IMG/VR virus record: IMGVR_UViG_3300009134_000007
Coordinates: 1-34,455 of that record
Strand: one strand, 5' to 3'
From: a virus
Length of the DNA: 34,455 nucleotides
This document shows, in pieces, positions 1 to 32,990 of the stretch (position 1 is its first letter; each line of letters opens with the position of its first letter). Position numbers and translations under genes: made by a program. The notes under the pieces were generated by a model. It was not told where the DNA came from. It made no database searches and was given only the letters and a program-made list of their open reading frames with translations.

Positions 1-1170
1 TCACTTGTCTTTCATAAATCCAAACCTATCCTCATAAACTTCATCAAAATCTCCGTGGCTGTAATGCGACAACATGCGCATGTCGGCATGGCCCGTACGG
101 CCCATGGCGCGGTGAGGCGGTACGCCGACGTCCTGGAGCATGGTCGTGTATGTGTGCCTGGCATCATGGAGGCGGGCCACGATGCCGCATTCCCGGAAAA
201 GCGTCCGGATCGCTTTTGAGACCGTCTCCGGATGTAACCTTGGCAGGATGAATTCCGATTTTGGATTTTGGATTTCCGATTTTGGAACATCCTTTGAGGT
301 TTCGGCTTTGAGCTTTGAACTTTGAGCTTTCAGCTCATTATACAGCCGAGTCCCCAGACCGATCGTGCGCTTTTTTTTCGTCTTTGTGATCTCTGCCGGC
401 AGGGTGATGGAGCGTTCCTTCCAATCGATCATGGCCCACCGGGCCAACAGCACTTCTTTTCTCCGGATCCCGAGCCCGAAAAACATGAGCAGGTGAAGCG
501 TGAGGGTACCCTGAAGCCATGGCCGGTCTTGCCGGTCTTTTTTGTCAGCGCGATCCAGGACCTCCCGGATCTGGTCGTCTGTGAGAATTGCGTGTTTGAT
601 TTTTTCCTCAGGAGGTGTCCGGCCGGCCGAAAGCGTTGCAAAGGCGTTGTACGGGAGGTACCGGATCGCGAGCTGATGATTGAAGGCGCTCTTCAGGTCC
701 CGGACATGCTTTCTAATATAGGTCACCTTTCGTCCACGCGCCTTCAGCTCGTTGACCATGACCAGACCGTCGGTGAACTCGAGGCTTTTGATCGGCGTGT
801 CCTTGCCCAGGATCGTTTCGATGTTTTTTCTCCTGGCTGATCGGCTTTCGATCTCCTCAGGACAGACAGTCCACGTGGCTTCCCATTCATCGAGACAGTC
901 CGAGAGCGTCTTCCCGTGCCCGGGCAGGTCCCCCTCGAGTCGGGCGCGGTCCGCCCTGGAGATGAGCCGCGCATTGTGCCAGATGATCACATCCCTGCTC
1001 GAGTACGTTTGCCCGGCCGTATGCACTTCGATCTCATTGGCCAGCACCATCTTCTCCCTGGCCACCCGCACGCTATCCACCAGCCGGCTCCGCTCCACAA
1101 TCTCCCCATCCGGAAAATAGACCTTGTACCGCAGGCGATGCTTATTGACGAGTTTGGAGATCCTGGCCAT
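1..1170 (-). CDS. int: Tyrosine-family integrase
   Basis: Site-specific recombinase that would integrate and excise the prophage. The 389-residue protein has an N-terminal arm/core-binding part (about 1-190) and a C-terminal catalytic domain. The catalytic set is visible: R236 in GIRRKE, H335 and R338 in LHDARHT, H361 in RTGHAD, and nucleophile Y370 in SHYSHG; lysines at 263-267 could supply the catalytic Lys. It reads toward the left edge, as expected for an integrase beside its attachment site, but that site must lie outside the window. Residues 281-307 (SSKLKAETSK, then PKSEIQNPKSEF) are low-complexity and look like translated intergenic repeat lying between the beta-sheet and the HxxR motif. 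All catalytic motifs remain in frame, so the enzyme may still be active. Confidence 0.95.
   Translation of the reverse strand: MARISKLVNKHRLRYKVYFPDGEIVERSRLVDSVRVAREKMVLANEIEVHTAGQTYSSRDVIIWHNARLISRADRARLEGDLPGHGKTLSDCLDEWEATWTVCPEEIESRSARRKNIETILGKDTPIKSLEFTDGLVMVNELKARGRKVTYIRKHVRDLKSAFNHQLAIRYLPYNAFATLSAGRTPPEEKIKHAILTDDQIREVLDRADKKDRQDRPWLQGTLTLHLLMFFGLGIRRKEVLLARWAMIDWKERSITLPAEITKTKKKRTIGLGTRLYNELKAQSSKLKAETSKDVPKSEIQNPKSEFILPRLHPETVSKAIRTLFRECGIVARLHDARHTYTTMLQDVGVPPHRAMGRTGHADMRMLSHYSHGDFDEVYEDRFGFMKDK
250..330 (-). repeat. Repeat-derived in-frame insertion in int
   Basis: The DNA consists of short near-repeats (GATTTTGGATTTTGGATTTC; TTTGAGCTTTGAACTTTGAG) that encode SSKLKAE and NPKSEIQ-type peptides inside the integrase. 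Such strings usually sit between genes. The tract is a whole number of codons and falls in a loop of the catalytic domain. Confidence 0.7.
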
Positions 1171-9038: not shown

Positions 9039-9076
9039 ACTGAGGGACGACCTGGAATTAGAAATGGAGGCTAAAC

Positions 9077-9133
9077 ATGACTATCAATGTAGGCAGGCGT
9101 AGCCCATCGGGAACGAAAGGATTAAGGTTATGA
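9077..9133 (+). CDS. 18-residue ORF coupled to the next gene
   Basis: MTINVGRRSPSGTKGLRL is preceded by AATGGAGG, and its stop overlaps the start of the following gene (ATGA at 9130-9133). The downstream gene has no ribosome site of its own, so this mini-ORF may act as a coupling leader more than encode a functional peptide. Confidence 0.4.
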   Translation: MTINVGRRSPSGTKGLRL

Positions 9134-9447
9134 GACGGCGAAGAATGAGAAGATATAGTCCAGAACAAATAGTTGAAAAAAAGCAACAAGATATAAAACG
9201 AGCAAGGGATGCAAACAATATAATTAAGGAAATAAAAGGCTCTCTCGTTAAAACAGAGCCTACAAAATGTTGTTTTAATTGTTTTCATGGCGAGAATCGA
9301 TATGGAGGATGGGGGTGTAGTTATGAGGGAACATGGTGTCGTTTACTATATGCCCATATTAATATAGTATCAGGCCATAAAAAAGCTTTTAAAGAGCAGG
9401 TTGTAAATAAGCATAATATTTGTAAATTATATGAGTCGAGAGGCTAA
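9130..9447 (+). CDS. Cys-rich hypothetical early protein
   Basis: A 105-residue protein with an Arg-rich start (MRRRRMRRYS), a helical segment to about residue 40, then C47, C48, C51, C63, C70 and C98 (KCCFNCFHGENRYGGWGCSYEG). This looks like a metal-binding or disulfide cluster of the phage 'C..C......g.C......W' kind. It interrupts two related segments, the DUF397 gene and its C-terminal remnant, so it may have arrived by insertion or with a duplication. Function unknown. Confidence 0.55.
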   Translation: MRRRRMRRYSPEQIVEKKQQDIKRARDANNIIKEIKGSLVKTEPTKCCFNCFHGENRYGGWGCSYEGTWCRLLYAHINIVSGHKKAFKEQVVNKHNICKLYESRG

Positions 9448-9458
9448 CCAGCCGCCGC

Positions 9459-9518
9459 AAAAATGAATGGACAGCTTTTATCAAAGGGGTGAAGGCTGGA
9501 GAATTTGATTTGGAATAG
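9459..9518 (+). pseudogene. Remnant of a second DUF397 copy (C-terminal 18 codons)
   Basis: In frame this reads NEWTAFIKGVKAGEFDLE and stop, matching the end of the intact DUF397 protein (DEWIAFIKGIKAGEFNLK) at 14 of 18 positions. DNA identity continues at synonymous sites. There is no start codon or N-terminal half upstream in that frame, so it is a broken duplicate. Confidence 0.7.
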
Positions 9519-9558
9519 AGTGGGGGCGGTCTAATAAACCACGGTTGTTAGAAGGCTT

Positions 9559-9750
9559 ATGATTAAATCAAAAGAAGAGGCCCCAAAGACAATCTACCTG
9601 CAATGGTCGGATGATTATGGAGAGCCTATCGAGGAAGTGACGTGGTGTGAAGACAGGATAACCAAGCATGATCTTGTCTATCATCTTGAAGTGTGTGGTG
9701 TATGTTTCTATCCAAATCCACATCATTCGGTATGGTGTTCCCGCCGCTGA
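9559..9750 (+). CDS. Small hypothetical phage protein
   Basis: A 63-residue protein. TIYLQWSDDYGEPIEEVTWC followed by EDRITKHDLVY matches a recurrent layout of small phage proteins ('iylqw......~evTWs.drI...DveYi') whose role is unknown. The C-terminal end is His/Cys-rich (CGVCFYPNPHHSVWC) and could bind zinc, which the usual version lacks. The ribosome site is weak (TTAGAAGG). It is followed 7 bases later by another small frame. Confidence 0.5.
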   Translation: MIKSKEEAPKTIYLQWSDDYGEPIEEVTWCEDRITKHDLVYHLEVCGVCFYPNPHHSVWCSRR

Positions 9751-9757
9751 TTAAGAT

Positions 9758-9964
9758 ATGCTGCCATCATTCATAATGTTGGAAATGAGTAAATTGCCGG
9801 ATCACAAATACAAATTGAGTCTGGTAGACAAGAAGCATAAGTGTGAAATGGACCATATAATTATTACAATCCATACAAATTTAAGATCGAGGAATTCCAT
9901 AGGCCGCTATCTCATGAAGCAAGTCGCCGATTACAAAGCAGACCTCATTAAGGAATTGCTATGA
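9758..9964 (+). CDS. Small hypothetical protein coupled to the ASCH gene
   Basis: A 68-residue frame ending in ATGA with the next start at 9961. Starts at 9758, 9776 and 9785 are all possible and none has a good ribosome site. The sequence is charged and helical at the end (QVADYKADLIKELL). No family recognised. Coupling to the ASCH gene is the main support. Confidence 0.45.
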   Translation: MLPSFIMLEMSKLPDHKYKLSLVDKKHKCEMDHIIITIHTNLRSRNSIGRYLMKQVADYKADLIKELL

Positions 9965-10374
9965 AAGCAATTAGTCTAAAACCACCATGGCCATATGCGA
10001 TTTTTTACCTGGGAAAGGATGTAGAGAATCGCCCATGGCGTGATCCATACCGTGGTCCGATATTGATCCATGCGAGTAAAAAGTGGGACAAAAAGGGCTC
10101 TGATTTTATCTCTGGTCGCCTTGGACCAGGGTATATGGATGAATACGTGCCAAGCCGCGAACACCATGTGTTTGGGGCGATTGTAGGCATAGCGGAATTA
10201 GTTGACTGTGTTAGCTCGTATGATTCCCGTTGGTTTTTTGGGACCTGGGGTTTCGTCCTGGAAAATGCCGTGGAGTTTAAGCAGCCGATTAACTACTCAG
10301 GGCAATTAAAGATCTTCAATGTGCCGGATGGATTTTTGAGGCGATACGATTTTATGAGGGAATATCTAATCTGA
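9961..10374 (+). CDS. ASCH-domain protein
   Basis: A 137-residue protein made of one ASCH domain. It opens with MKAISLKPPWPYAIFYLGKD and ENRPW, continues with GPILIHASKKWDKKG, and has a beta strand 'VFGAIVGIAELVDC' before FFGTWGFVLENA and QPINYSGQLKIFNVP. These match the ASCH RNA-binding fold related to PUA, including the 'S...PWa..i..G.K..E.R.W...~rG.~~IHasK' signature. In phages such proteins are thought to bind RNA or process modified nucleosides, but the ligand here is unknown. It is translated from an ATGA overlap. Confidence 0.85.
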   Translation: MKAISLKPPWPYAIFYLGKDVENRPWRDPYRGPILIHASKKWDKKGSDFISGRLGPGYMDEYVPSREHHVFGAIVGIAELVDCVSSYDSRWFFGTWGFVLENAVEFKQPINYSGQLKIFNVPDGFLRRYDFMREYLI

Positions 10375-10440
10375 TTTGAAGCCAGGTGTCAGGTATCAGG
10401 ATACTGACACCTGACACCCAGTCACTTCTTTATAGATGAA
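10375..10440. repeat. CAGGTGTCAGG inverted-repeat element, copy 3
   Basis: CCAGGTGTCAGGTATCAGG faces CTGACACCTGACACC, giving a hairpin in the gap between the ASCH gene and the replication-type gene. It could terminate early transcription or simply be a repeat. Confidence 0.6.
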
Positions 10441-10442
10441 AG

Positions 10443-10883
10443 ATGTCCAAAAAACGCACTCCCGGCCAGGTAGCGGTTGAACGCGATCTGATAATGTCTT
10501 CAGCCTTCCTTTCGCTTACCGGCATGGCCCCTCAAGTGCTCCTTCTGTTTCTTTCCTGCCGAAAATTCGAGCGTCGAAAAACCCACAAGAAAAAAAGAGG
10601 AGAGTGGATCTGTATCAATGCAGATGAACTGTCATTCACGTACGCTCAGGCCGAAAGCCTGGGCATTAACGGCAAGCGTTTCGTGAGAGCGATAGATCAG
10701 TTGGTTGAGAAGGGCTTCCTCAATATAGCACACTCCGGCGGCGTGATCCGGGGGGACGTCTCGCTGTATGAAGTGAGCGAGCGCTGGAAACTTTATGGCA
10801 CGAAAGAGTTTCAGCCTGCCACCAGACCGAAAGATGATCGCTGGATAGGATACAGAAAGCAGGGAAAAAACGATGAGACCTGA
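10443..10883 (+). CDS. Winged-helix Rep-like protein next to the iterons
   Basis: A 146-residue basic protein. Residues 15-40 (DLIMSSAFLSLTGMAPQVLL) and residues 64-115 (FTYAQAESLGINGKRFVRAI, then LVEKGFLNIAHSGGVIRGDV, then SLYEVSERWKLYGT) look like a winged helix-turn-helix of the plasmid/phage replication-initiator type: ordered helices, then a beta-wing, then 'Y..SerWk.YGT'. The gene is followed within 16 bases by six copies of a 19-bp iteron. Initiator gene plus iterons is the usual plasmid and phage origin layout. An alternative is a transcription regulator binding the same repeats. No helicase or primase motif is present, so host functions would be needed. Confidence 0.6.
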   Translation: MSKKRTPGQVAVERDLIMSSAFLSLTGMAPQVLLLFLSCRKFERRKTHKKKRGEWICINADELSFTYAQAESLGINGKRFVRAIDQLVEKGFLNIAHSGGVIRGDVSLYEVSERWKLYGTKEFQPATRPKDDRWIGYRKQGKNDET

Positions 10884-10898
10884 GCCCGATTAAGGGTG

Positions 10899-11241
10899 TC
10901 ATAAACGTCTGTTATGGACAACGTAAGTTGACAATTTGCGTCACAGTCACAAACGTCTGTTATGGGGTCAAAAAAGGGATGTCCGGCACGGGTTTCCGGG
11001 CTGTTAGCGGTAGATCGATAATAAAATCAGCAAGTAAATAGGTGGGGAAAAATACCCCATAGGGAAAACATAACGGTCATAAACGTCTGTTATGGAGGCG
11101 AGTTTAACAGACGTTTATGGCGGACATAAAAACCTACAGTACAGACGTTTATGACTGTGACGCAAATTGTCACTTTTGTAAGGGTGCGAAAAGACTCATT
11201 AATTAAACTGGGGTAAAATACCCCGCTACAGACGTTTATGA
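10899..11241. repeat. Six-iteron array with inverted arms; candidate replication origin
   Basis: Forward iterons (consensus TCATAAACGTCTGTTATGG) lie at 10899-10917, 10947-10965 and 11077-11095. Inverted copies lie at 11102-11120, 11136-11154 and 11223-11241; the last two are weaker at one end. A separate exact inverted repeat, GACAATTTGCGTCACAGTCA at 10930-10949 and its complement at 11152-11171, abuts an iteron on each side, so each arm extends to about 30 bases with one mismatch. AT-rich DNA and a GGGGTAAAATACCCC palindrome (11210-11224) lie within. The polarity switches near 11100. Confidence 0.65.
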
Positions 11242-11260
11242 CCGCGTACAACTGTATCAA

Positions 11261-11335
11261 CCAACCGGGGTCGCGCTTGCGCCGCTTGCGACAAGCGCGA
11301 GTTCGACCCCGGTTGGTCAGAGTTTCCCTTTTTTT
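11261..11335 (+). terminator. Strong stem-loop with T-tract downstream of the iterons
   Basis: CCAACCGGGGTCG (11261-11273) pairs exactly with CGACCCCGGTTGG (11304-11316). An inner CGCGCTTG/CAAGCGCG stem (11272-11279 with 11292-11299) extends it. A run of T residues follows at 11329-11335. This is unusually long for a simple terminator and could also be part of an origin or a processing site. Confidence 0.55.
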
Positions 11336-11458
11336 CTGGTCGACTCTTTTTTGCGCTTTTTTTGATCGTAGATGAACGAAGACGAGAGGGGCGCGAAAAC
11401 GATGGCCGGTTCAGTTCATGGGTCGAGGGATGAGGCAGGTCGGTTCCGGAGGTGATGA
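11320..11458. other. Gap after the stem-loop
   Basis: Two short T-rich runs (TTTTTTT near 11330 and 11361) are followed by a 27-codon frame starting at 11372 without a ribosome site. GGAGG at 11448 belongs to the next gene. Nothing else stands out. Confidence 0.3.
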
Positions 11459-11800
11459 GTGAGGCAGATTGGTTTAGAGGGGATTAATCAGGCTGGGAAC
11501 GAGGCTGGTAAGGGCGTCACGTGGAAGCTTTGTGACAGGATTTTCAGGGCTGCGCATCAAAGAGTAGAGAATTATGCGCGGCACGTCAGAGAGGTTATTG
11601 AGCAGGGGCCTGAGCAACACGATCTCTGCTTGAGCGAGGGGTTTGATGCGCGATACCAGGAGATGATCGAGGAGATAGAGCGTGAGTGGCTGTTGGACAG
11701 GGCGGATCTTAAGCGGTTTTCGCGGCTGGTCGCGGACTGGGAGGATCTGTGTATGACTGCATTGCAGGTCGAGTTGAAAAAGCGAGACAGACCACTTTGA
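11459..11800 (+). CDS. Hypothetical helical protein
   Basis: A 113-residue protein starting at GTG 11459, placed by GGAGG at 11448-11452 with a 6-base gap. It is almost entirely helical and charged (RIFRAAHQRVENYARHVREV; MIEEIEREWLLDRADLKRFS). It has no known motif and no cysteine cluster. It lies alone between the stem-loop after the iterons and a 325-base gap, so it may be the first gene after the origin region. A role in control of replication or late expression would be a guess. Confidence 0.5.
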   Translation: MRQIGLEGINQAGNEAGKGVTWKLCDRIFRAAHQRVENYARHVREVIEQGPEQHDLCLSEGFDARYQEMIEEIEREWLLDRADLKRFSRLVADWEDLCMTALQVELKKRDRPL

Positions 11801-12125
11801 TCCACTGCGAAAATGACGCTAAAAAACGTAATAATTTCAATAACGTTGACATATTAAATATTATCGTACCCTAACGCGGAAAATGGTTTTAGAAACGGGC
11901 GAAAACAGGCGAAAACAGGCGATTTTTCGAGGTGGAACCTAACTCGATTGAGTCGCATAATCGACATGGCCGGATTGGCTATTTCGGTGTCACGGCCCCT
12001 GATTCCGTGTCAGGCCGGATATTCACCACTAATCAGGTGTCAGGTGTCAGGTGCCAGGTGTCGACTCTTGTTTTACCACCAGGTCCTATTTGTCCTGGTG
12101 GAGGAAGAATCAAGGAGGTGATGAC
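11801..12125. other. Intergenic gap with tandem GGCGAAAACA and a CAGGTGTC tract
   Basis: This 325-base gap holds TTGACATATTAAATATTATC near 11846 as a possible promoter with no clear -10 box. It also holds three tandem units of GGCGAAAACA (about 11898-11922) and a copy of the CAGGTGTCAGG family (12032-12062). AAGGAGGTGATG at 12113-12124 serves the next gene. A readable frame across the repeat from 11932 was judged not real. Confidence 0.4.
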
Positions 12126-12386
12126 ATGCCGATCGAGGTGATCTGCTCGCGTTGCGGCGGCCTCGGAACCCTCGAGTTTCTGCGTCTATCCGAACCACTT
12201 TATGAGGACATCCAGCCGGGTCAGCGCGTCTATATCGGCAAGCGCCCGCACTGGAGAACCGAGCCCTGCCCTGATTGCGCCGGCCGTGGCCGCGTTGAGG
12301 CCCTCTCTTTCCAGGAACGCCGGAAAAAAACCGATGGGTCCCATACCCCCCTACCCCCCCCGACGGGGGGTACCGTCCCAAATTGA
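12126..12386 (+). CDS. Protein with two DnaJ-type zinc motifs
   Basis: An 86-residue protein with an ideal AAGGAGGTGATG ribosome site. CSRCGGLG near the N terminus and EPCPDCAGRGRVE near residue 55-65 are CxxCxGxG repeats, the pattern of the DnaJ zinc domain but with two repeats instead of four. The same pair, with the same EPCPDCxGxGxVE phrase, appears inside the small terminase 1.6 kb downstream, so the two genes share a module. The C-terminal tail runs through a G/C-rich hairpin (CCCCCCCCGACGGGGGG) that may also be a terminator. Confidence 0.65.
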   Translation: MPIEVICSRCGGLGTLEFLRLSEPLYEDIQPGQRVYIGKRPHWRTEPCPDCAGRGRVEALSFQERRKKTDGSHTPLPPPTGGTVPN

Positions 12387-12443
12387 TGACCCTACTTCTT
12401 GGGTGTAGGTAACTTTTTGGATGGTGCAAAAGGAGGTGATAAT

Positions 12444-12641
12444 ATGGTTAAAGTATTAGAAATCAGAGAGGTTATTAGCGTAATAATTGAAACCGATAAA
12501 GAAGATTTTCCTACATATCGACGGTACAGCGCAGATAATTGGGAAAATCTAATGGGTACTACTTGGGAACCTGAATATGATTGTGATGAAATCGAGGCTG
12601 CATATCAAAAGTATATAAAAAAACAAGAAGAGGAGGAATAG
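12444..12641 (+). CDS. Small acidic hypothetical protein
   Basis: A 65-residue protein started at ATG 12444 because AAAGGAGGTGAT lies at 12429-12440; an earlier in-frame start is less likely. It has a beta-type N terminus (MVKVLEIREVISVIIETD) and an acidic end (KKQEEEE). It shows no family match. It belongs to a run of three small genes spaced within a few bases. Confidence 0.6.
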   Translation: MVKVLEIREVISVIIETDKEDFPTYRRYSADNWENLMGTTWEPEYDCDEIEAAYQKYIKKQEEEE

Positions 12642-12645
12642 TAAT

Positions 12646-12987
12646 ATGGTGAAAACATTAAAAATTGCTGCGTTAATTTTTTTGGGATTCTTATTTGGCG
12701 CTACTTTTGGTGTCAAATCCGCAGCGCTCGCACAAAAATTTTTTCGCGACGAAGGACATACGATTATTCTCAACGGCGAGAATATGAGCGGTTTTGTTTA
12801 TCGCAATGTCGATCCAGCTGATATGTTGCTCAAAATATATCCGTCTTCAAGAACCGCATATCGCATTGATGCCCGCGGCGTGGTAAAGCTTTACGGGAGA
12901 TGGGGTTCTCATATGGTTCCCACGGCCGAGGGAGGAAAACTTTCAGAGGATTCTTTGGTTGCTATGATAGTGCCGATTCGGAGGTAA
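12646..12987 (+). CDS. Small secreted or periplasmic protein
   Basis: A 113-residue protein with a signal peptide: basic MVKTLK, a hydrophobic core (IAALIFLGFLFGATFG), then cleavage near SAALA-Q. The mature part is mixed alpha/beta (HTIILNGENMSGFVYRNVDP) and has no known motif. It lies between early genes and the packaging genes in a group of small genes, and GAGGAGG lies just before it. A secreted phage protein at this place could act in superinfection exclusion or host-envelope change. A lysis-related role is less likely because the lysis genes are far to the right. Confidence 0.6.
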   Translation: MVKTLKIAALIFLGFLFGATFGVKSAALAQKFFRDEGHTIILNGENMSGFVYRNVDPADMLLKIYPSSRTAYRIDARGVVKLYGRWGSHMVPTAEGGKLSEDSLVAMIVPIRR

Positions 12988-12993
12988 AATTAT

Positions 12994-13284
12994 ATGCAAT
13001 GGCATGAATTATATACTGAGTATACTGACCATGAAGATATCATTCCACAAGGTATGGCTTTTTTTATCGATGAACCACTTATCTCGGAACTTGAGAAACA
13101 GAAGAAGTGCACATCTTGTGGAAAATATTATTATTCATACGAAAAAATTAAGACCTATCTGTGCTACAGAGATGATATATGTGCCTGCTGTTATCTCCAG
13201 TTTCTTAAGAGACTTTATTCTCATCGTTGTCGACTCCATAGACGTATGTGCCGGCTCTTAAATGTAAATCATGTCATAGTTTGA
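12994..13284 (+). CDS. Cys-rich hypothetical protein
   Basis: A 96-residue protein. CTSCGKYYYSYEKIK to CYRDDICACCY forms a zinc-ribbon-like centre (C39, C42, then C56, C63, C65, C66). The C-terminal end is basic and His/Arg/Cys-rich (SHRCRLHRRMCRLL). GGAGGT lies before the ATG, overlapping the end of the previous gene. It is AT-rich like other early genes. Function unknown. Confidence 0.5.
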   Translation: MQWHELYTEYTDHEDIIPQGMAFFIDEPLISELEKQKKCTSCGKYYYSYEKIKTYLCYRDDICACCYLQFLKRLYSHRCRLHRRMCRLLNVNHVIV

Positions 13285-13634
13285 TTGATATAGTCCAATA
13301 GATTTAACGTCTTTATTCATTTTGCGGATTGTCAAGGAAAAAATGAAAGTTTTTTGCTATCAGTTAATATATTTTAAGGTGATATAGCACAATATAATAC
13401 ACCCCTTTTTTCCCTTCCAAATTTCCTTCCAAAAAACCCGTGTTATAAGATTTAGGCAAAAAATCAAAATCTCCGGGCGCGCCTCGCGACCCTGGGTACA
13501 TGGTGGGGACCACAACCCAGGGTGCGCCCGGAAGATTTCTGGATTCAGATGTTGATGAGTGTCCAGGAATACACGGACAAACGAGTTTGTCCGTGCCACT
13601 CTGACACCTGACACCTGAACACTATTGGTTCTCT
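13285..13634. other. 350-base gap with strong hairpin and three repeat types
   Basis: AT-rich to 13470, then a G/C-rich hairpin: CCGGGCGC (13473-13480) with GCGCCCGG (13524-13531), and ACCCTGGGT (13489-13497) with ACCCAGGGT (13515-13523). Next come a palindromic family B copy (13575-13592) and CTGACACCTGACACCTGAAC (from 13597). No coding frame is convincing. A transcription stop between early and late genes would fit here. Confidence 0.45.
13558..13621 (-). repeat. Long family B copy, left of terS
   Basis: Contains GGACAAACGAGTTTGTCC (13575-13592) within AGTGTCCAGGAATACAC and GTGCCACTCTGACACCTG. About 50 bases are nearly identical to the copy at 14284-14338 on the other side of the terminase small gene. 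Confidence 0.75.
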
Positions 13635-14270
13635 ATGCCTGGTTTAAACAAAATTGATAAATTTCAGCTTGGGGATCGCATTCTCGCCTTGTGCGGTGAT
13701 GGGCTTACCGATGAGGAGATTTCCAAAATCCTGAATCAGGAGGCCGTCGGCGCCTACACTGTTAGCCGACCGACAATTTCCCGGTGGCTCCAGGGCGTGC
13801 GCCGTGCCCGGGCACAGAAGACTAAAAAGGTTTATGATGAGCACATCGAGGTGGTCTTACCTCAGGACCTCGAAGCCCTCGAGCGGCTGGAGAAATACTT
13901 TCTTGGCGTAGCCCTACCGAACTTCAACAAAGATCCGAATAGCGAGCCTGCCACACAACCTTGCGAGAATTGCAAGGGTACCGGCAAGATCAAGAACCTT
14001 TACCTCCAGGAGCCACAAATTAGGATGGAGCCCTGCCCGGATTGCAACGGCGACGGCAAGGTAGAAATCCCCCCGGAGGTAATGGATCCGAGAAATCGTC
14101 TGGCGGCCGCGGACCGCGTGATTAAAATCATCGATACAAAGTTGAAATACGCCGGGCTCCTGGAGGATCCGAGTGGCCGGGGTGATGACGATCACCCGGT
14201 TGATTTAACACAATTCAGGAAAGACATGGAAGGAATCAGGGATCAGCAACAGGTCACCACTAAACATTGA
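13635..14270 (+). CDS. terS: Terminase small subunit with internal DnaJ-type zinc motifs
   Basis: A 211-residue protein directly before the large terminase gene, so it likely recognises the packaging site. An N-terminal helix-turn-helix lies at about 23-52 (GLTDEEISKILNQEA then TVSRPTISRWLQ). Residues 110-144 contain C110, C113 (CENCKGTG) and C134, C137 (CPDCNGDG), a DnaJ-like CxxCxGxG pair not usual in small terminases. A helical third (PRNRLAAADRVIKIIDTKL) may mediate oligomers. The Cys pair resembles the stand-alone gene at 12126. The assignment rests on location and the N-terminal DNA-binding motif. No ribosome site is obvious before ATG 13635. Confidence 0.7.
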   Translation: MPGLNKIDKFQLGDRILALCGDGLTDEEISKILNQEAVGAYTVSRPTISRWLQGVRRARAQKTKKVYDEHIEVVLPQDLEALERLEKYFLGVALPNFNKDPNSEPATQPCENCKGTGKIKNLYLQEPQIRMEPCPDCNGDGKVEIPPEVMDPRNRLAAADRVIKIIDTKLKYAGLLEDPSGRGDDDHPVDLTQFRKDMEGIRDQQQVTTKH

Positions 14271-19635: not shown

Positions 19636-19700
19636 AGGTTATTCGTTATCGGTTATAAGTTATAAGTAACCGAATAACCAATAACTAATAACCAATAACG
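19636..19700. repeat. AT-rich TAATAAC hairpin (family A) after scaffold
   Basis: GTTATTCGTTATCGGTTATA faces TAACCAATAACTAATAACC. It continues into CCCGCCCTGCGGGC and GGAGCGAAGCGAC just before the next ATG. Confidence 0.75.
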
Positions 19701-21773: not shown

Positions 21774-21838
21774 TTATTAGTTATCAGTTAATCGTTATTC
21801 GGTTACTGATAACTAATAACTAATAACAAATAACGCGA
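21774..21838. repeat. AT-rich TAATAAC hairpin (family A) before tail tubular A
   Basis: TTATTAGTTATCAGT (21774-21788) pairs exactly with ACTGATAACTAATAA (21805-21819). After it come TAATAAC units and GCGAAGCGGAGCGAAGCC, then the ATG, so GGAGCGAAG is the only ribosome-like sequence before tail tubular A. Confidence 0.85.
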
Positions 21839-21852
21839 AGCGGAGCGAAGCC

Positions 21853-23337
21853 ATGAACAGCGTCGTCGACCTGTGCAACGAGGCCCTGGTCCTGATCGGG
21901 GCGGATACGATCATGGACCTCGATGAGGACTCCAAGGAGGCCAGGCATTGCAAGCTCCTGTACGATTCTTCGCGTGACGCCGTGCAGCGGGCACACCCGT
22001 GGAATGTGTGCATGGAGCGGGCAGCTCTTTCCGACTGGAACAAGCTGGCCGACCCGGGCACGCTGCCCACGGGCATCGGCCGGGGCGCGGCTTTCAGCCC
22101 GGACGGCTCCCTGCTGGCAATCACGCACGACGTATCACCATTTGTTACGATCTACAACACGTCCGACTGGAGCAAGGTGACCGACCCGGGCACGCTGCCC
22201 ACGGGCATCGGCCGTGGCGCGGCTTTCAGTCCGGACGGCTCCCTGCTGGCAATCGCGCACACTACTTCGCCATTTGTTACGATCTACAACACTTCGGACT
22301 GGTCCAAGGTGACCGACCCGGGCACGCTGCCCACGGGCAACGGCTATGGCGCGGCTTTCAGCCCGGACGGCTCCCTGCTGGCAATCGCGCATTTCACGTC
22401 ACCATTTGTTACGATCTACAACACGTCCGACTGGAGCAAGGTGACCGACCCGGGCACGCTGCCCACGGGCAACGGCATGGACGCGGCCTTCAGCCCGGGC
22501 GGCTCCCTGCTGGCCATCGCGCACATTACTTCGCCATTTGTTACGATCTACAACACTTCGGACTGGTCCAAGGTGGCCGACCCGGGCACGCTGCCCGCGG
22601 GCAACGGCGTCGACGCGGCTTTCAGCCCGGACGGCTCCCTGCTGGCCATCGCGCACCACACGTCACCATTTGTTACGATCTACAACACTTCGGACTGGTC
22701 CAAGGTCACCGACCCGGGCACGCTGCCCACGGGCAACGGCTATGGCGCGGCCTTCAGCCCCGACGGCTCCCTGCTGGCCATCGCGCACACCACGTCGCCA
22801 TACGTCACGATCTACAACACGTCGGACTGGTCCAAGGTGACTGATGGCACCCTGCCTCTGGGCATCGGGTATGGCGCGGCGTTCAACCACAACGGTTCAT
22901 TCCTGGCCATCGCGCACGCGATAACGCCGTATGTTACCGTTTACAACACTGCATTGCTCGGGAAATCCCCGGCCTGGGGCTACGCTAGTCAGTACCAGCT
23001 CCCCGCTGATCCGTACTGCCTCCGGGTGCTACAGATGGAACACCTCGATTATGAATTCAAGATCGAGGGAAGAAAACTGCTGACCAATGAGGGTACGGCG
23101 AATATTCTCTATATTGCCCGCCGCGAGAATGTGGCTGAATTCGATGCCCTGTTAAAAAAGGCGATCGCGGCACGGCTCGCCTGCGACCTGGCGTATGCGA
23201 TTACGGACTCGAACACGATGGCGGAAGCAAAATGGGGACTCTACCAGCACGCGCTGACAGAGGCGAGATCAATCGACGGCCAGGAAGGAACGCCGGAAGA
23301 GATCCAGGCGGATACGTGGATTAACGCAAGGAGATGA
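21853..23337 (+). CDS. Tail tubular protein A (gp11-like) with an inserted seven-repeat beta-propeller
   Basis: The 494-residue protein is a gp11-type tail tubular protein split by an insert. Residues 1-60 (LCNEALVLIGADTIMDLDED, then CKLLYDSSRDAVQRAHPWNV) are the usual N terminus. Residues 375-494 (WGYASQYQLPADPYCLRVLQ, then FKIEGRKLL and LYIARRENVAEFD) are the usual C-terminal half. In ordinary gp11 proteins these meet in a short loop ('PWnfa..r..La......p.wgyayqLP'). Here residues 61-376 hold seven 44-residue WD-like repeats (R6 has 43). Without the insert it would be about 180 residues, a normal gp11 size. It would form the tail ring against the portal, with a propeller projecting from it. 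Confidence 0.9.
   Translation: MNSVVDLCNEALVLIGADTIMDLDEDSKEARHCKLLYDSSRDAVQRAHPWNVCMERAALSDWNKLADPGTLPTGIGRGAAFSPDGSLLAITHDVSPFVTIYNTSDWSKVTDPGTLPTGIGRGAAFSPDGSLLAIAHTTSPFVTIYNTSDWSKVTDPGTLPTGNGYGAAFSPDGSLLAIAHFTSPFVTIYNTSDWSKVTDPGTLPTGNGMDAAFSPGGSLLAIAHITSPFVTIYNTSDWSKVADPGTLPAGNGVDAAFSPDGSLLAIAHHTSPFVTIYNTSDWSKVTDPGTLPTGNGYGAAFSPDGSLLAIAHTTSPYVTIYNTSDWSKVTDGTLPLGIGYGAAFNHNGSFLAIAHAITPYVTVYNTALLGKSPAWGYASQYQLPADPYCLRVLQMEHLDYEFKIEGRKLLTNEGTANILYIARRENVAEFDALLKKAIAARLACDLAYAITDSNTMAEAKWGLYQHALTEARSIDGQEGTPEEIQADTWINARR
22060..22980 (+). repeat. Seven 132-bp WD-like repeats (propeller array 1)
   Basis: Repeats begin at TLPTG-type boundaries, residues 70-113, 114-157, 158-201, 202-245, 246-289, 290-332 and 333-376. 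The core of each is AAFSPDGSLLAIAH, then SP(F/Y)VTIYNTSDWSKV. The seventh is diverged at both ends (FNHNGSFLAIA; YNTALLGK). DWNKLADPG before the first unit looks like the closing strand. Confidence 0.95.
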
Positions 23338-23342
23338 TAAAG

Positions 23343-23500
23343 AGACGTTATTGGTTATCGGTTATAAGTTATTTGATTACTAATAACATCTTTCTTAGAC
23401 GCGAAGCGACTTGGTTATGGATTCCTGCTTCCGCAGGAATGACAGAACTTTGGACTGTGTAGTTACTAATAACTAATAACTAATAACGAATAACGTCTTT
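23343..23500. repeat. Split AT-rich hairpin (family A) with inserted ATTCCTGC palindrome
   Basis: GACGTTATTGGTTATCGGTT and later TAACTAATAACGAATAACG flank ATTCCTGCTTCCGCAGGAAT (23421-23440), an 8-bp stem with 4-base loop, and GCGAAGCGAC. It looks like one repeat interrupted by other repeat DNA. Confidence 0.65.
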
Positions 23501-23518
23501 TTACACGCGTAGCGACCT

Positions 23519-26500
23519 ATGCCCAAAGCCAGTCCAATCCTGACGAATTTTACCGCCGGCGAGCTATCGCCACGGCTCGACGCGCGGGTGGATTTTTCGA
23601 AGTATTACAACGGCTGCGCCGTCCTGGAGAACATGATGGTCTGGCCGCAGGGCGGGGCCACGCGCAGGCCGGGTACGAGGTACGTGGCGGATGTAAAGGA
23701 CCATGACAAAAAAGTGCGGCTGGTACCCTTCGAGTTCTCCACGGAGCAAGCGTACGCGATCGAGTTCGGGGATCGATATGCCCGGTTCTATATGAACAAG
23801 GGACAGATCAAAAAACCCATGAACAACCCGGGCACGACGCCCACGGGCATCGGCCGGGGCGCGGCTTTCAGCCCGGACGGCTCCCTGCTGGCAATCACAC
23901 ATAGCACGTCACCGTACGTGACGATCTACAACACATCGGACTGGTCCAAGGTGACCGACCCGGGCACGCTGCCCACGGGCACCGGCTGCGGCGCGGCCTT
24001 CAGCCCTGACGGCTCCCTGCTGGCAATCGCGCACACTACTTCGCCATTTGTTACGATCTACAACACTTCGGACTGGAGCAAGGTCACCGATCCCGGCACG
24101 CTGCCCGCCGGCGACGGCCAGGGCGCGGCCTTCAGCCCGGACGGCTCCCTGCTGGCAATCGCGCATGTCTCATCACCGTACGTGACGATCTACAACACGT
24201 CCGACTGGAGCAAGATGGCTGACCCCGGCACGTTGCCCACGAGTATAGCCTGGGACGCTGTGTTCAGCCCGGACGGCTCCCTGCTGGCAATCGCGCATCT
24301 CACATCACCGTACGTGACGATCTACAACACGTCCGACTGGTCCAAGGTGACCGACCCCGGCACGCTGCCCGCGGGCACCGGCTGGGGCGCGGCCTTCAGC
24401 CCGGACGGCTCCCTGCTGGCAATCGCGCATAGCATGTCACCGTACGTGACGATCTACAACACGTCCGACTGGAGCAAGGTGGCTAACCCCGGCACGTTGC
24501 CCACGAGTATAGCCTGGGACGCTGTGTTCAGCCCGGACGGCTCCCTGCTGGCAATCACGCATAGCATGTCACCGTACGTGACGATCTATAACACGTCCGA
24601 CTGGTCCAAGGTGACCGACCCCGGCACGCTGCCCGCGGGTGTTGGTTACGGCGCGGCCTATAGCCCGGACGGCTCCCTGCTGGCCATCGCGCATTACACA
24701 TCACCGTACATGACAATTTACGGGGCCGGAAATATCTATGAAATCCCTACGCCGTATAAAGAGGGGGATCTTCCGCAGCTCCAGTTCGCCCAGAGCGCGG
24801 ATGTGATGTGGATCACCCACCCGTCATATAAGACCAGGAAGCTTAGCCGCACGGGGCATACTGCGTGGCTATTAACCAGGTATCTTCCTACCTCGGATCC
24901 CTTTATCGTTAGCTGGGATAAGCTCACCGATCCGGGCACCCTGCCCGCGGGCATCGGCCGCGGCGCGGCCTTCAGCCCGGACGGCTCCCTGCTGGCAATC
25001 GCGCATCTCATATCACCGTACGTGACGATCTACAACACATCGGACTGGAGCAAGGTGGCAAATCCGGGCACGCTGCCCACGGGCAACGGCTATGGCGCGG
25101 CTTTCAGCCCGGACGGCTCGCTCCTGGCCATCGCGCACGACGTATCACCATTTGTTACGATCTATAACACATCGGACTGGTCCAAGGTGACCGACCCCGG
25201 CACGCTGCCCACGAGCACCGGCATCGGCGCGGCTTTCAGCCCGGACGGCTCGCTCCTGGCCATCGCGCACGACGTATCACCATTTGTTACGATCTATAAC
25301 ATATCGGACTGGTCCAAGGTGACCGACCCCGGCACGCTGCCCACGGGCGACGGCGTCGGCGCGGCTTTCAGCCCGGACGGCTCCCTGCTGGCCATCGCGC
25401 ACACCACGTCGCCATACGTCACGATCTACAACACGTCGGACTGGTCCAAGGTGACTAACCCCGGCACGACGCCCACGGGCAACGGCTATGGCGCGGCCTT
25501 CAGCCCGGACGGCTCCCTGCTGGCCATCGCGCATCTCACATCACCGTACGTGACGATCTACAACACTTCGGACTGGTCCAAGGTGACCGACCCGGGCACG
25601 CTGCCCGCGGGCAACGGCTATGGCGCGGCTTTCAGCCCGGACGGCTCCCTGCTGGCCATCGCGCACATCACGTCGCCATACGTCACGATCTATAACACGT
25701 CGGACTGGTCCAAGGTGGCCGACCCCGGCACGCTGCCCGCGGGCGACGGCATCGACGCGGCCTTCAGCCCGGACGGCTCCCTGCTGGCAATCGCGCACAG
25801 CACCTCACCGTCCGTGACGATCTATAGAGAATCCGGTGACGATTTTCCGCGGTGTCTTGGATTTTACGAGGAGCGGCTATGGTTCGCTTCCACCAGGAAC
25901 AATCCGCAAACAAAGTATTCCACTAAAAGCGGGGATTTTGAGGACATAACCACTGGGACCAATGACGATGACGCCGTGCAATACACGATCGCCGCGGATC
26001 AGGTGAATGCAATCCAGTGGTTGGCGCCAGGGCCGTTATTATTAGCCGGCACTACCGGCGGGGAGTGGAAGACGGGCAGCAGCGTACTGACCGAGCCTAT
26101 TACGCCCACTAACATTAAAGTCACCAGAGAAACAATACATGGCAGTGCATGGATCCAACCGACCATGGTGTCACATGCCGTATTGTTCGTGCAAAAGGCA
26201 AAACGCAAAGTTCGGGAGTTGGGTTATCGGTACGAAGTGGACAGATATACCGCACCGGACCTGACGCTGTTGGCAGAGCACATCACGAGGGGCGGGATCA
26301 CCGGCCGTATGGCGTACCAACAGGAGCCGAACAGTATCGTCTGGGCCGTGCGCAGCGACGGAGTGCTGTTAGGGCTGACGTACCAGAAGGATCAGGACGT
26401 AGTGGCGTGGCACAGGCACATAACGGACGGGGCAGTGGAGTCCGTGGCCTGCATACCAAGTTTGGGCCGGGACGAATTATGGCTATCGGTTAAGCGCACT

Positions 26501-27055
26501 ATCGGCGGGGTTACCAAGAGATATATCGAGTATATGAACGCGGAAGAAGTTGATGCCCTGGAGGATATGTTCTTTGTAGATTCGGGACTTTCATACTCGG
26601 GGCCACCCGCCACAACAATATCCGGCCTGGATCATTTAAAGGGCAAAACCGTGTCCATACTGGCCGACGGTATCGTGGTCGCTGATCAGGTGGTGTCAGG
26701 TACCGGCACGATTACCCTGGTCACCGCGGCCAGCAAGGTACACGTGGGGTTGCCTTATACCAGCAAGCTCCAAACGATGCGCATCGAGGCGGGGAGCGCG
26801 GAAGGCACGGCCCAGGGTAAGATCAAGAAGATCCGGAAAGTAGCAGTACGCCTGCTTGAAAGCTCTGGGTTTCGAATAGGGCCGAACGAAGATAGGCTGG
26901 ATACCGCGGATGTTTCCGCTGGGCTGTTCACGGGAGACAAGGAGATCTTGTTTAAGGGTGGTTGGGAAACCGAAGGAAAAATCATGATCGTCCAGGAGCA
27001 ACCGCTGCCATTGACGGTGCTGGCTATCATAGCCAGATTGAGGACCTCGGATTGA
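23519..27055 (+). CDS. Tail tubular protein B (gp12-like) with two inserted seven-repeat beta-propellers
   Basis: The 1178-residue protein is a gp12-type nozzle protein interrupted twice. Residues 1-100 (NFTAGELSPRLDARVDFSKY, then NMMVWPQGGATRRPGTRYVA) are canonical. The first array is 106-413. Canonical text returns at 'IYEIPTPYKEGDLPQLQFAQ', then SADVMWITHP and LSRTGHTAW. The second array is 474-781. Canonical text resumes from GDDFPRCLGFYEERLWFAST and DFEDI to the end (RELGYRYEVDRYTA; MRIEAGSAEG). Without the arrays it would be about 560 residues. It ends the tail and is exposed on the virion. The start is ATG 23519; GCGTAGCGACCT is the only ribosome-like sequence. Confidence 0.9.
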   Translation: MPKASPILTNFTAGELSPRLDARVDFSKYYNGCAVLENMMVWPQGGATRRPGTRYVADVKDHDKKVRLVPFEFSTEQAYAIEFGDRYARFYMNKGQIKKPMNNPGTTPTGIGRGAAFSPDGSLLAITHSTSPYVTIYNTSDWSKVTDPGTLPTGTGCGAAFSPDGSLLAIAHTTSPFVTIYNTSDWSKVTDPGTLPAGDGQGAAFSPDGSLLAIAHVSSPYVTIYNTSDWSKMADPGTLPTSIAWDAVFSPDGSLLAIAHLTSPYVTIYNTSDWSKVTDPGTLPAGTGWGAAFSPDGSLLAIAHSMSPYVTIYNTSDWSKVANPGTLPTSIAWDAVFSPDGSLLAITHSMSPYVTIYNTSDWSKVTDPGTLPAGVGYGAAYSPDGSLLAIAHYTSPYMTIYGAGNIYEIPTPYKEGDLPQLQFAQSADVMWITHPSYKTRKLSRTGHTAWLLTRYLPTSDPFIVSWDKLTDPGTLPAGIGRGAAFSPDGSLLAIAHLISPYVTIYNTSDWSKVANPGTLPTGNGYGAAFSPDGSLLAIAHDVSPFVTIYNTSDWSKVTDPGTLPTSTGIGAAFSPDGSLLAIAHDVSPFVTIYNISDWSKVTDPGTLPTGDGVGAAFSPDGSLLAIAHTTSPYVTIYNTSDWSKVTNPGTTPTGNGYGAAFSPDGSLLAIAHLTSPYVTIYNTSDWSKVTDPGTLPAGNGYGAAFSPDGSLLAIAHITSPYVTIYNTSDWSKVADPGTLPAGDGIDAAFSPDGSLLAIAHSTSPSVTIYRESGDDFPRCLGFYEERLWFASTRNNPQTKYSTKSGDFEDITTGTNDDDAVQYTIAADQVNAIQWLAPGPLLLAGTTGGEWKTGSSVLTEPITPTNIKVTRETIHGSAWIQPTMVSHAVLFVQKAKRKVRELGYRYEVDRYTAPDLTLLAEHITRGGITGRMAYQQEPNSIVWAVRSDGVLLGLTYQKDQDVVAWHRHITDGAVESVACIPSLGRDELWLSVKRTIGGVTKRYIEYMNAEEVDALEDMFFVDSGLSYSGPPATTISGLDHLKGKTVSILADGIVVADQVVSGTGTITLVTAASKVHVGLPYTSKLQTMRIEAGSAEGTAQGKIKKIRKVAVRLLESSGFRIGPNEDRLDTADVSAGLFTGDKEILFKGGWETEGKIMIVQEQPLPLTVLAIIARLRTSD
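23834..24757 (+). repeat. Seven 132-bp WD-like repeats (propeller array 2)
   Basis: Residues 106-149, 150-193, 194-237, 238-281, 282-325, 326-369 and 370-413 of the gp12-like protein; the last is diverged after IYG. Units 4 and 6 are nearly the same at DNA level, both carrying TSIAWDAVFSPDG, which suggests duplication of a two-unit block. Confidence 0.95.
24938..25861 (+). repeat. Seven 132-bp WD-like repeats (propeller array 3)
   Basis: Residues 474-517, 518-561, 562-605, 606-649, 650-693, 694-737 and 738-781 of the gp12-like protein. SWDKLTDPG precedes unit 1 as the closing strand; the seventh diverges after VTIYR. Units 2 and 3 share the DVSPFVTIYN block with unit 1 of the gp11 array. Confidence 0.95.
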
Positions 27056-28111: not shown

Positions 28112-28172
28112 TTATTAGTTATCAGTTATTCGTTATTAGTAATCAAATAACTTATAACTAATAACAAATAAC
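28112..28172. repeat. AT-rich TAATAAC hairpin (family A) before the second internal protein
   Basis: GTTATTAGTTAT (28112-28123) pairs with ATAACTAATAAC. It ends in CACGGAGCGATAGCGACC, with GGAGCGA the ribosome-like sequence for the next ATG. Confidence 0.8.
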
Positions 28173-28192
28173 ACGGAGCGATAGCGACCGCC

Positions 28193-32912: not shown

Positions 32913-32990
32913 CCAGGTGTCAGGTTTCAGGATTCTTGAACACTGAACATTGAACACTGAACACTGAACACTGACACCTGGATACTGGAG
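32913..32990. repeat. CAGGTGTCAGG element with tandem GAACACT units
   Basis: CCAGGTGTCAGG faces CTGACACCTGG across TGAACACTGAACATTGAACA-type tandem units. It is the largest copy of its family here. Confidence 0.65.

Follow-up and report, generated by a model that had tools for sequence, protein, structure and literature searches.

Seven-bladed WD40-like repeat arrays in loops of a phage tail adaptor and nozzle as candidate adhesion rings

We examined a pair of adjacent tail genes in viral DNA from the IMG/VR record IMGVR_UViG_3300009134_000007, each of which carries one or more arrays of a 44-residue repeat within an otherwise ordinary tail protein (below, ‘the window’ denotes the whole stretch of DNA that was analysed, positions 1 to 34,455 of that record). 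The first gene (21853–23337, plus strand) encodes a 494-residue gp11-like tail adaptor (tail tubular protein A) with one inserted, predicted propeller; the second (23519–27055, plus strand) encodes a 1178-residue gp12-like tail nozzle protein (tail tubular protein B) with two. Both open reading frames (ORFs) are intact. The adaptor core (21853–22032 together with 22951–23337) matches the phrog_394 ‘tail protein’ family (E 1.3e-48) and the nozzle core matches phrog_376 ‘tail protein’ (E 2e-201), and relatives of the latter match the solved tail nozzle 8ck1 (E 1e-195). Homologues of the gp11 core share 39–48% identity with it, or 29–40% in the case of the divergent L051 and L053. The genes run from portal, capsid and related genes through adaptor and nozzle to internal virion proteins, and both the core sequences and the adaptor-nozzle order after the capsid gene place the two proteins in the gp11-like and gp12-like families. 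The original prediction had described them as canonical tail proteins apart from the repeats, and their cores are indeed ordinary.

The repeat (unit consensus TDPGTLPTGNGYGAAFSPDGSLLAIAHTTSPYVTIYNTSDWSKV) is present in 7 + 7 + 7 copies. Array A (22033–22950, plus strand; residues 61–366) comprises a closing strand, DWNKL, followed by seven units with blade centres at residues 79, 123, 167, 211, 255, 299 and 342, and is predicted to form a closed seven-bladed propeller. Array B1 (23822–24721, plus strand; residues 102–401) places seven units at nozzle site 1, in a hairpin after FYMNKGQIK, and array B2 (24911–25825, plus strand; residues 465–769) places a closing strand, SWDKL, and seven units at nozzle site 2; the blade centres of these two arrays run from residue 115 to 379 and from 483 to 747, respectively. 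Between them lies a segment of nozzle core (24722–24910, plus strand) homologous to the LPxLxFAQSADVMYITHP...KLSRTGHTxW of relatives, and after B2 the C-terminal nozzle core (25826–27055, plus strand) supplies, by homology, the remaining core propeller blades and the C-terminal domains. Tandem Repeats Finder reported 132-bp repeats at 22033–22841, 23826–24721 and 24926–25826 with scores of 1141–1222, which exclude a chance origin for the three arrays.

The number and positions of the units are thus as originally predicted, and so are the partial repeat ends (DWNKLADPG and SWDKLTDPG) ahead of two of the arrays; B1 opens with a more degenerate partial end, KKPMNNPG. The predicted unit length of 44 residues is correct for every unit except the last of the gp11 array, which has 43 and is one DPG residue short.

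It is very improbable that the arrays were collapsed, expanded or chimerically joined during assembly. The record is metagenomic, the repeats are 132 bp long, and an array in another phage (L022, described below) shows that collapse can occur. Here, however, all 21 units differ from one another and the ORFs are intact and joined to their cores at precise homologous loops; moreover, the longest exact repeat within an array is 71–76 bp, so that a short-read assembler is unlikely to have collapsed or expanded the arrays.

AlphaFold2 was run on array A and its flanks (residues 55–385) with an alignment of 24 seven-blade arrays, and returned a model with a mean predicted local distance difference test score (pLDDT) of 90.7 and a predicted template modelling score of 0.89. 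The model contains 21 long strands, three for each of seven blades, plus short outer strands, one of which is N-terminal and occupies the closing position. The predicted blades are therefore four-stranded and the ring is closed by a Velcro strand, in agreement with the earlier suggestion that the arrays close as seven-bladed propellers. Structural alignment with VIA-align (Foldseek was also run) gave Z scores of 40.9 against 2ymu, 40.4 against the WD40 domain of PkwA (5yzv; root mean square deviation 1.7 over 288) and 40.3 against the seven-bladed WRAP-T design 7big, with deviations of 1.7–1.8 Å from seven-bladed WD40 structures. B1 and B2, each likewise of seven units, align end to end with array A at 78 and 80% identity and are therefore expected to share its fold. 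The units lack the canonical WD40 signature (GH and WD dipeptides and an Asp in the b-c turn; GH...WD / DHSW) and read PGTLP...SPYVTIYNT; for that reason we call them WD40-like. Against the WD40 repeat profile PF00400 the gp11-like protein scored 26.7 bits (cut-off 27) and the gp12-like protein 43.1 bits, and both contain PD40 (PF07676) above its cut-off.

The original prediction held that a constant count of seven implies selection for ring closure, and that array counts varying freely in other phages would speak against this. At least 120 stretches of IMG/VR viral contigs were hit by a degenerate DNA pattern that encodes DGxxLAxAHxx[ST]P[FY] of the repeat family, and blades were counted in 106 non-redundant complete arrays with good units. 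The counts proved to be quantised, with 88 of the 106 falling within 0.65 blade of 7, 14 or 21. Most exceptions are due to divergent end blades, half blades or broken ORFs: the profile missed divergent terminal blades in L025, L026 and L124, which read as seven by eye, and the miss in L208 reflects a broken ORF. The single clear misfit, L022, has three units, two of which are 99% identical over 132 bp, and is either a short array or a possible case of assembly collapse; its near-identical units lie within an apparently duplicated jelly-roll (LamG-like) stretch of a 1489-residue ORF (9278–13744). Two circular permutations of the array, beginning with the D strand (as in the window) or with the B strand (L168 and L234), both total seven, which gives independent support for a quantised blade number and adds to the case for selection on closure.

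Such blades also make up nearly the whole of some phage proteins, with 14 blades in L030 (7764–9908; MW202701) and about 21 in each of L145 (5213–8299) and L218 (699–3773); these are apparently strings of two or three propellers. Another phage, L021, encodes in a 1667-residue ORF (9062–14062) a virion-like protein with two seven-unit arrays of the same family, one of which follows a jelly-roll-like stretch.

None of the 80 closest homologues of the gp12 core carries an array. In array-free homologues, gp11 has a loop of 5–6 residues (LA-xDTAT-PAWGF) at the point where array A is inserted, and gp12 has a short hairpin exactly at the point of B1; at site 2 most homologues have a small beta domain, which B2 replaces in the window. 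The arrays thus sit, as had been proposed, where these families normally have short loops or a small domain. In other phages an E1_FCCH domain of ~65 residues (PF16190, above cut-off) occupies these positions. L053 has it in the gp11 loop, Pelagibacter phage HTVC010P has it at nozzle site 1, Vibrio phages 1.021.A and PS25B.1 have it at site 2, and L234 has it in a third loop of the nozzle, site 3. Seven-blade inserts are found in three other gp12-like proteins, at site 1 in L138, at sites 2 and 3 in L168 and at site 2 in L234. Site 3 offers a natural pair, in that the FCCH-like domain that is unbroken in L234 contains 321 residues between KNKVAG and TFELYL in L168, a clean insertion in which no host residues were lost. 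Because the 80 nearest gp12 relatives are array-free and the same loops carry E1_FCCH elsewhere, we conclude that the array insertions are not random.

Other inserts in these proteins were searched against Pfam. The insert of 8ck1 at site 2 received no assignment, and a reading of the inserts in L053 and L138 as resembling carbohydrate-binding modules found no Pfam support; the insert of L092 gave a weak CBM_4_9 match (E 5e-4) below the cut-off. In L234 (1–560, reverse strand; residues about 1160–1346) repeats of a different type (ITWTIRSSAADNDWYGVAYGAGLFVAVA...MTSPDG) come after the beginning of the C-terminal nozzle domain and continue to the end of the contig; they are possibly another kind of inserted propeller.

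Within the unit, the most variable positions are 28, 12, 10 and 29, both in the arrays of the window and in the mean over 66 arrays. The modelled strands map to unit positions 11–16, 22–27, 33–37 and about 43, so that positions 10 and 12 would fall in the D-A loop and where strand A begins, and positions 28 and 29 in the B-C loop. Both of these loops lie on the top face of WD40 domains. The spacing of positions 10, 12 and 28 equals that of residues R1-2, R1 and D-1 (chance about 0.002 for the triple), which are the published top-face interaction hotspots of WD40 domains and correspond to residues 16, 18 and 34 in G-beta (PMC3419727). In the window, nonsynonymous and synonymous divergence (pN and pS) were 0.47 and 0.39 for the five variable codons, a ratio of about 1.2, and 0.046 and 0.285 for framework codons (those outside positions 8–13 and 28–29), a ratio of 0.16. 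Variation at the hotspot positions is not purged.

Confinement of variation to a few codons of a tail protein also resembles the targets of diversity-generating retroelements, and a targeted diversifier of that or a similar kind could in principle have produced it. Such targets are recognised by a reverse transcriptase gene, a template repeat and adenine-specific variation, a combination that this record, which may be incomplete, does not present: no reverse transcriptase was found in it, bases other than adenine have changed too, and the variable codons differ little from the constant ones in synonymous divergence. We accordingly favor selection over a targeted mutator, which we regard as most improbable.

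The blades of the window count as recently amplified by the measure of more than 60% identity between blades, their mean DNA identity within arrays being 0.84–0.89. Framework amino acid identity is 0.92 both within and between the three arrays, compared with 0.71 for the best other genome, which indicates that the blades were amplified or homogenised within the lineage; L021 presents the same pattern, with its own arrays sharing framework far above the level of other genomes. Copying of intact arrays is not supported, since units of the same index were no more alike between arrays than other units (0.877 versus 0.868 for A and B2, 0.847 versus 0.838 for A and B1, and 0.827 versus 0.832 for B1 and B2). 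For the same reason the GIGRG motif shared by the first units is a weak signal. The route may have been array copying followed by shuffling, or exchange at the level of single blades. We found no terminal inverted repeats bounding the arrays, and reading of the array junctions revealed no obvious target duplication and no mobile-element signature. The arrays are richer in GC (64–66%) than the tail cores (55–57%); however, the gap at fourfold sites (0.82–0.86 versus 0.73–0.77) is not decisive for a foreign origin, and no close bacterial homologues were found beyond two contigs from metagenome-assembled genomes.

These observations could also be read as those of near-neutral repeat domains, recently amplified, spread by recombination and tolerated since closed rings spare the host fold. 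Propellers amplify continuously in all lineages (PMC9218822), and the arrays of one genome are far more alike than those of other phages. Such an origin would nevertheless leave unexplained why the framework is so strongly constrained while exactly the known hotspot positions vary, and why independent lineages have come to use the same loops. We therefore consider it improbable.

The core of the nozzle proteins of T7 and SU10 is a seven-bladed propeller into which the tip (nozzle) domains are inserted, either between blades 2 and 3 or at a loop of blade 3, and these proteins form hexamers on dodecameric adaptors (PMC6702177, PMC9509320). In the alignments, nozzle site 2 probably corresponds to this tip insertion point. 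In KP32 TTPA, residues 57–99 were proposed to form a lectin-like, outward beta region (PMC5440376). The gp11 insert begins at residue 61, and alignment together with that description suggests that the gp11 loop opens a comparable outward region. If the rings of 12 adaptor and 6 nozzle subunits seen in T7 and SU10 apply here, each tail would bear ~24 added rings (12 + 6 + 6).

From the computed features (units, predicted fold, sites, recurrence and variability pattern) we infer an outward position, a copy number per tail, ligand binding and a role in adsorption, as follows. Each array would be a self-closing seven-bladed WD40-like beta-propeller set into an outward-facing loop of one of the core tail proteins. 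The last blade would be completed by the first strand of the array (DWNKL or SWDKL), which would bring chain entry and exit side by side, so that a ring could be inserted without breaking the host fold. With a constant framework and with D-A and B-C loop residues around the top face that differ from blade to blade and vary freely, each ring would therefore present a different 7-fold binding surface. The rings would bind host-surface or environmental ligands (polysaccharide or protein) multivalently during adsorption, and would be the main means of receptor binding, or an accessory to it, at loops that hold other modules in relatives. Because of the hotspot pattern, the presence of other accessory domains in these loops elsewhere, and the precedent from phage OWB that tail tubular proteins can bind host receptors (PMC7241545), we think it probable that the arrays are interchangeable seven-bladed adhesion rings on the exterior of the adaptor and nozzle.

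Four points weigh against this interpretation. The contrast in pN/pS was drawn from paralogous units in one genome; the positions of sites 1–3 on the tail rest on alignment and on the published descriptions of T7 and SU10; the model covers array A and its flanks only, and full-length gp11 predicted from its single sequence reached a pLDDT of 39; and the top face could serve docking inside the virion instead. The last of these leads to the main competing explanation, in which the closed rings are docking platforms for fibres, spikes or decoration proteins, or tail stiffeners, and the variable face matches a varying partner within the particle. Fibres dock on both the adaptor and the nozzle of T7 (PMC6702177), the gp11 insert is close to where the beta region begins, and none of the ORFs scanned in this window was recognised as a tail fibre or spike gene (the record is linear and possibly incomplete), so that a docked partner could be of an unknown kind. 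A site for one repeated partner should, however, be conserved, yet it differs in nearly every blade; 80 near relatives do without rings; and the sites also accept unrelated FCCH domains. We judge docking to be rather unlikely.

A bolder form of the adhesion hypothesis, which we put forward only tentatively, is that closed propellers are exchangeable multivalent receptor-binding cassettes that move between adaptor and nozzle loops and even into other inserted domains, that shuffling among the 21 blades of one tail makes new seven-fold surfaces, and that the tail shaft, rather than the fibres, is the main adhesion organ.

Elsewhere in the window we observed seven tandem tracts of 7-nt units, mostly intergenic (306–333, 12032–12059, 19671–19698, 21805–21832, 23463–23490, 28147–28174 and 32936–32970), of TAACTAA-, TGAACAC-, TCAGGTG- and CTTTGAG-like types; five shuffles of the sequence yielded none. 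An inverted repeat of such heptamers, with 36-nt arms that are 86% complementary, lies between the adaptor and nozzle genes (23338–23503). The tracts are reminiscent of heptamer repeats in filamentous cyanobacteria and may hint at the host. The left end of the window carries an integrase gene (phrog_1; 1–1170, minus strand), and directly ahead of the terminase gene a 211-residue protein (13635–14270) contains a stretch resembling a DnaJ-type CXXCXGXG zinc finger (below the Pfam cut-off).

The fold, the recent amplification of propellers and the presence of accessory domains on phage structural proteins are each already known. Recently amplified WD40 propellers such as PkwA (5yzv) and WRAP (2ymu, whose 14 blades form two rings) have near-identical blades, seven per ring, the same fold (Z about 40) and tandem rings in multiples of seven (PMC9218822, PMC6805158); those are domains of cellular proteins, however, whereas the rings described here lie in loops of the phage tail core and vary at hotspots. 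Phage WD40/YVTN-like proteins (phrog_19311; the wD40 repeat protein of MW202701; POR1, CGphi29 and ZRG1) share the repeat family (FSPDGxxLAxAHxxSPYITIY) and mostly have 7 or 14 blades, but are mostly free-standing or C-terminal domains outside the adaptor and nozzle. The T7 and SU10 nozzles concern the same part of the tail, and their Velcro-closed propeller is interrupted by an inserted tip domain; that propeller constitutes the nozzle fold and forms the lining of the channel, whereas the arrays would be extra propellers in loops. Promiscuous phage decoration domains (immunoglobulin-like, E1_FCCH, and the lectin-like region of KP32 TTPA) are likewise accessory modules on structural proteins, and FCCH uses the same four loops, but they are single small domains rather than seven-fold rings with variable hotspot residues.

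The original prediction regarded a tail with three such rings as new. In the literature, of which subscription papers were incompletely covered, we came across nothing that describes seven-bladed propellers within adaptor or nozzle loops, their quantised blade counts in phages, or hotspot-restricted variation. That part of the claim stands, but its novelty is reduced by the seven-bladed propeller already present in the nozzle core (PMC6702177, PMC9509320), by the wide distribution of the repeat family in phages and by the arrays in three other gp12-like proteins.

If the interpretation as adhesion rings is true, a ring-shaped, repeat-built adhesion module joins the known phage decorations, and does so on the adaptor and nozzle, which are usually viewed as conserved plumbing. 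The repeats would provide a natural test of what sets the blade number of a propeller (7, 14 or 21 in a fast-evolving repeat), and of whether tail-shaft proteins help to recognise the host. Because the variable residues can be read from sequence, it would be possible to compare predicted binding surfaces between phages and between hosts.

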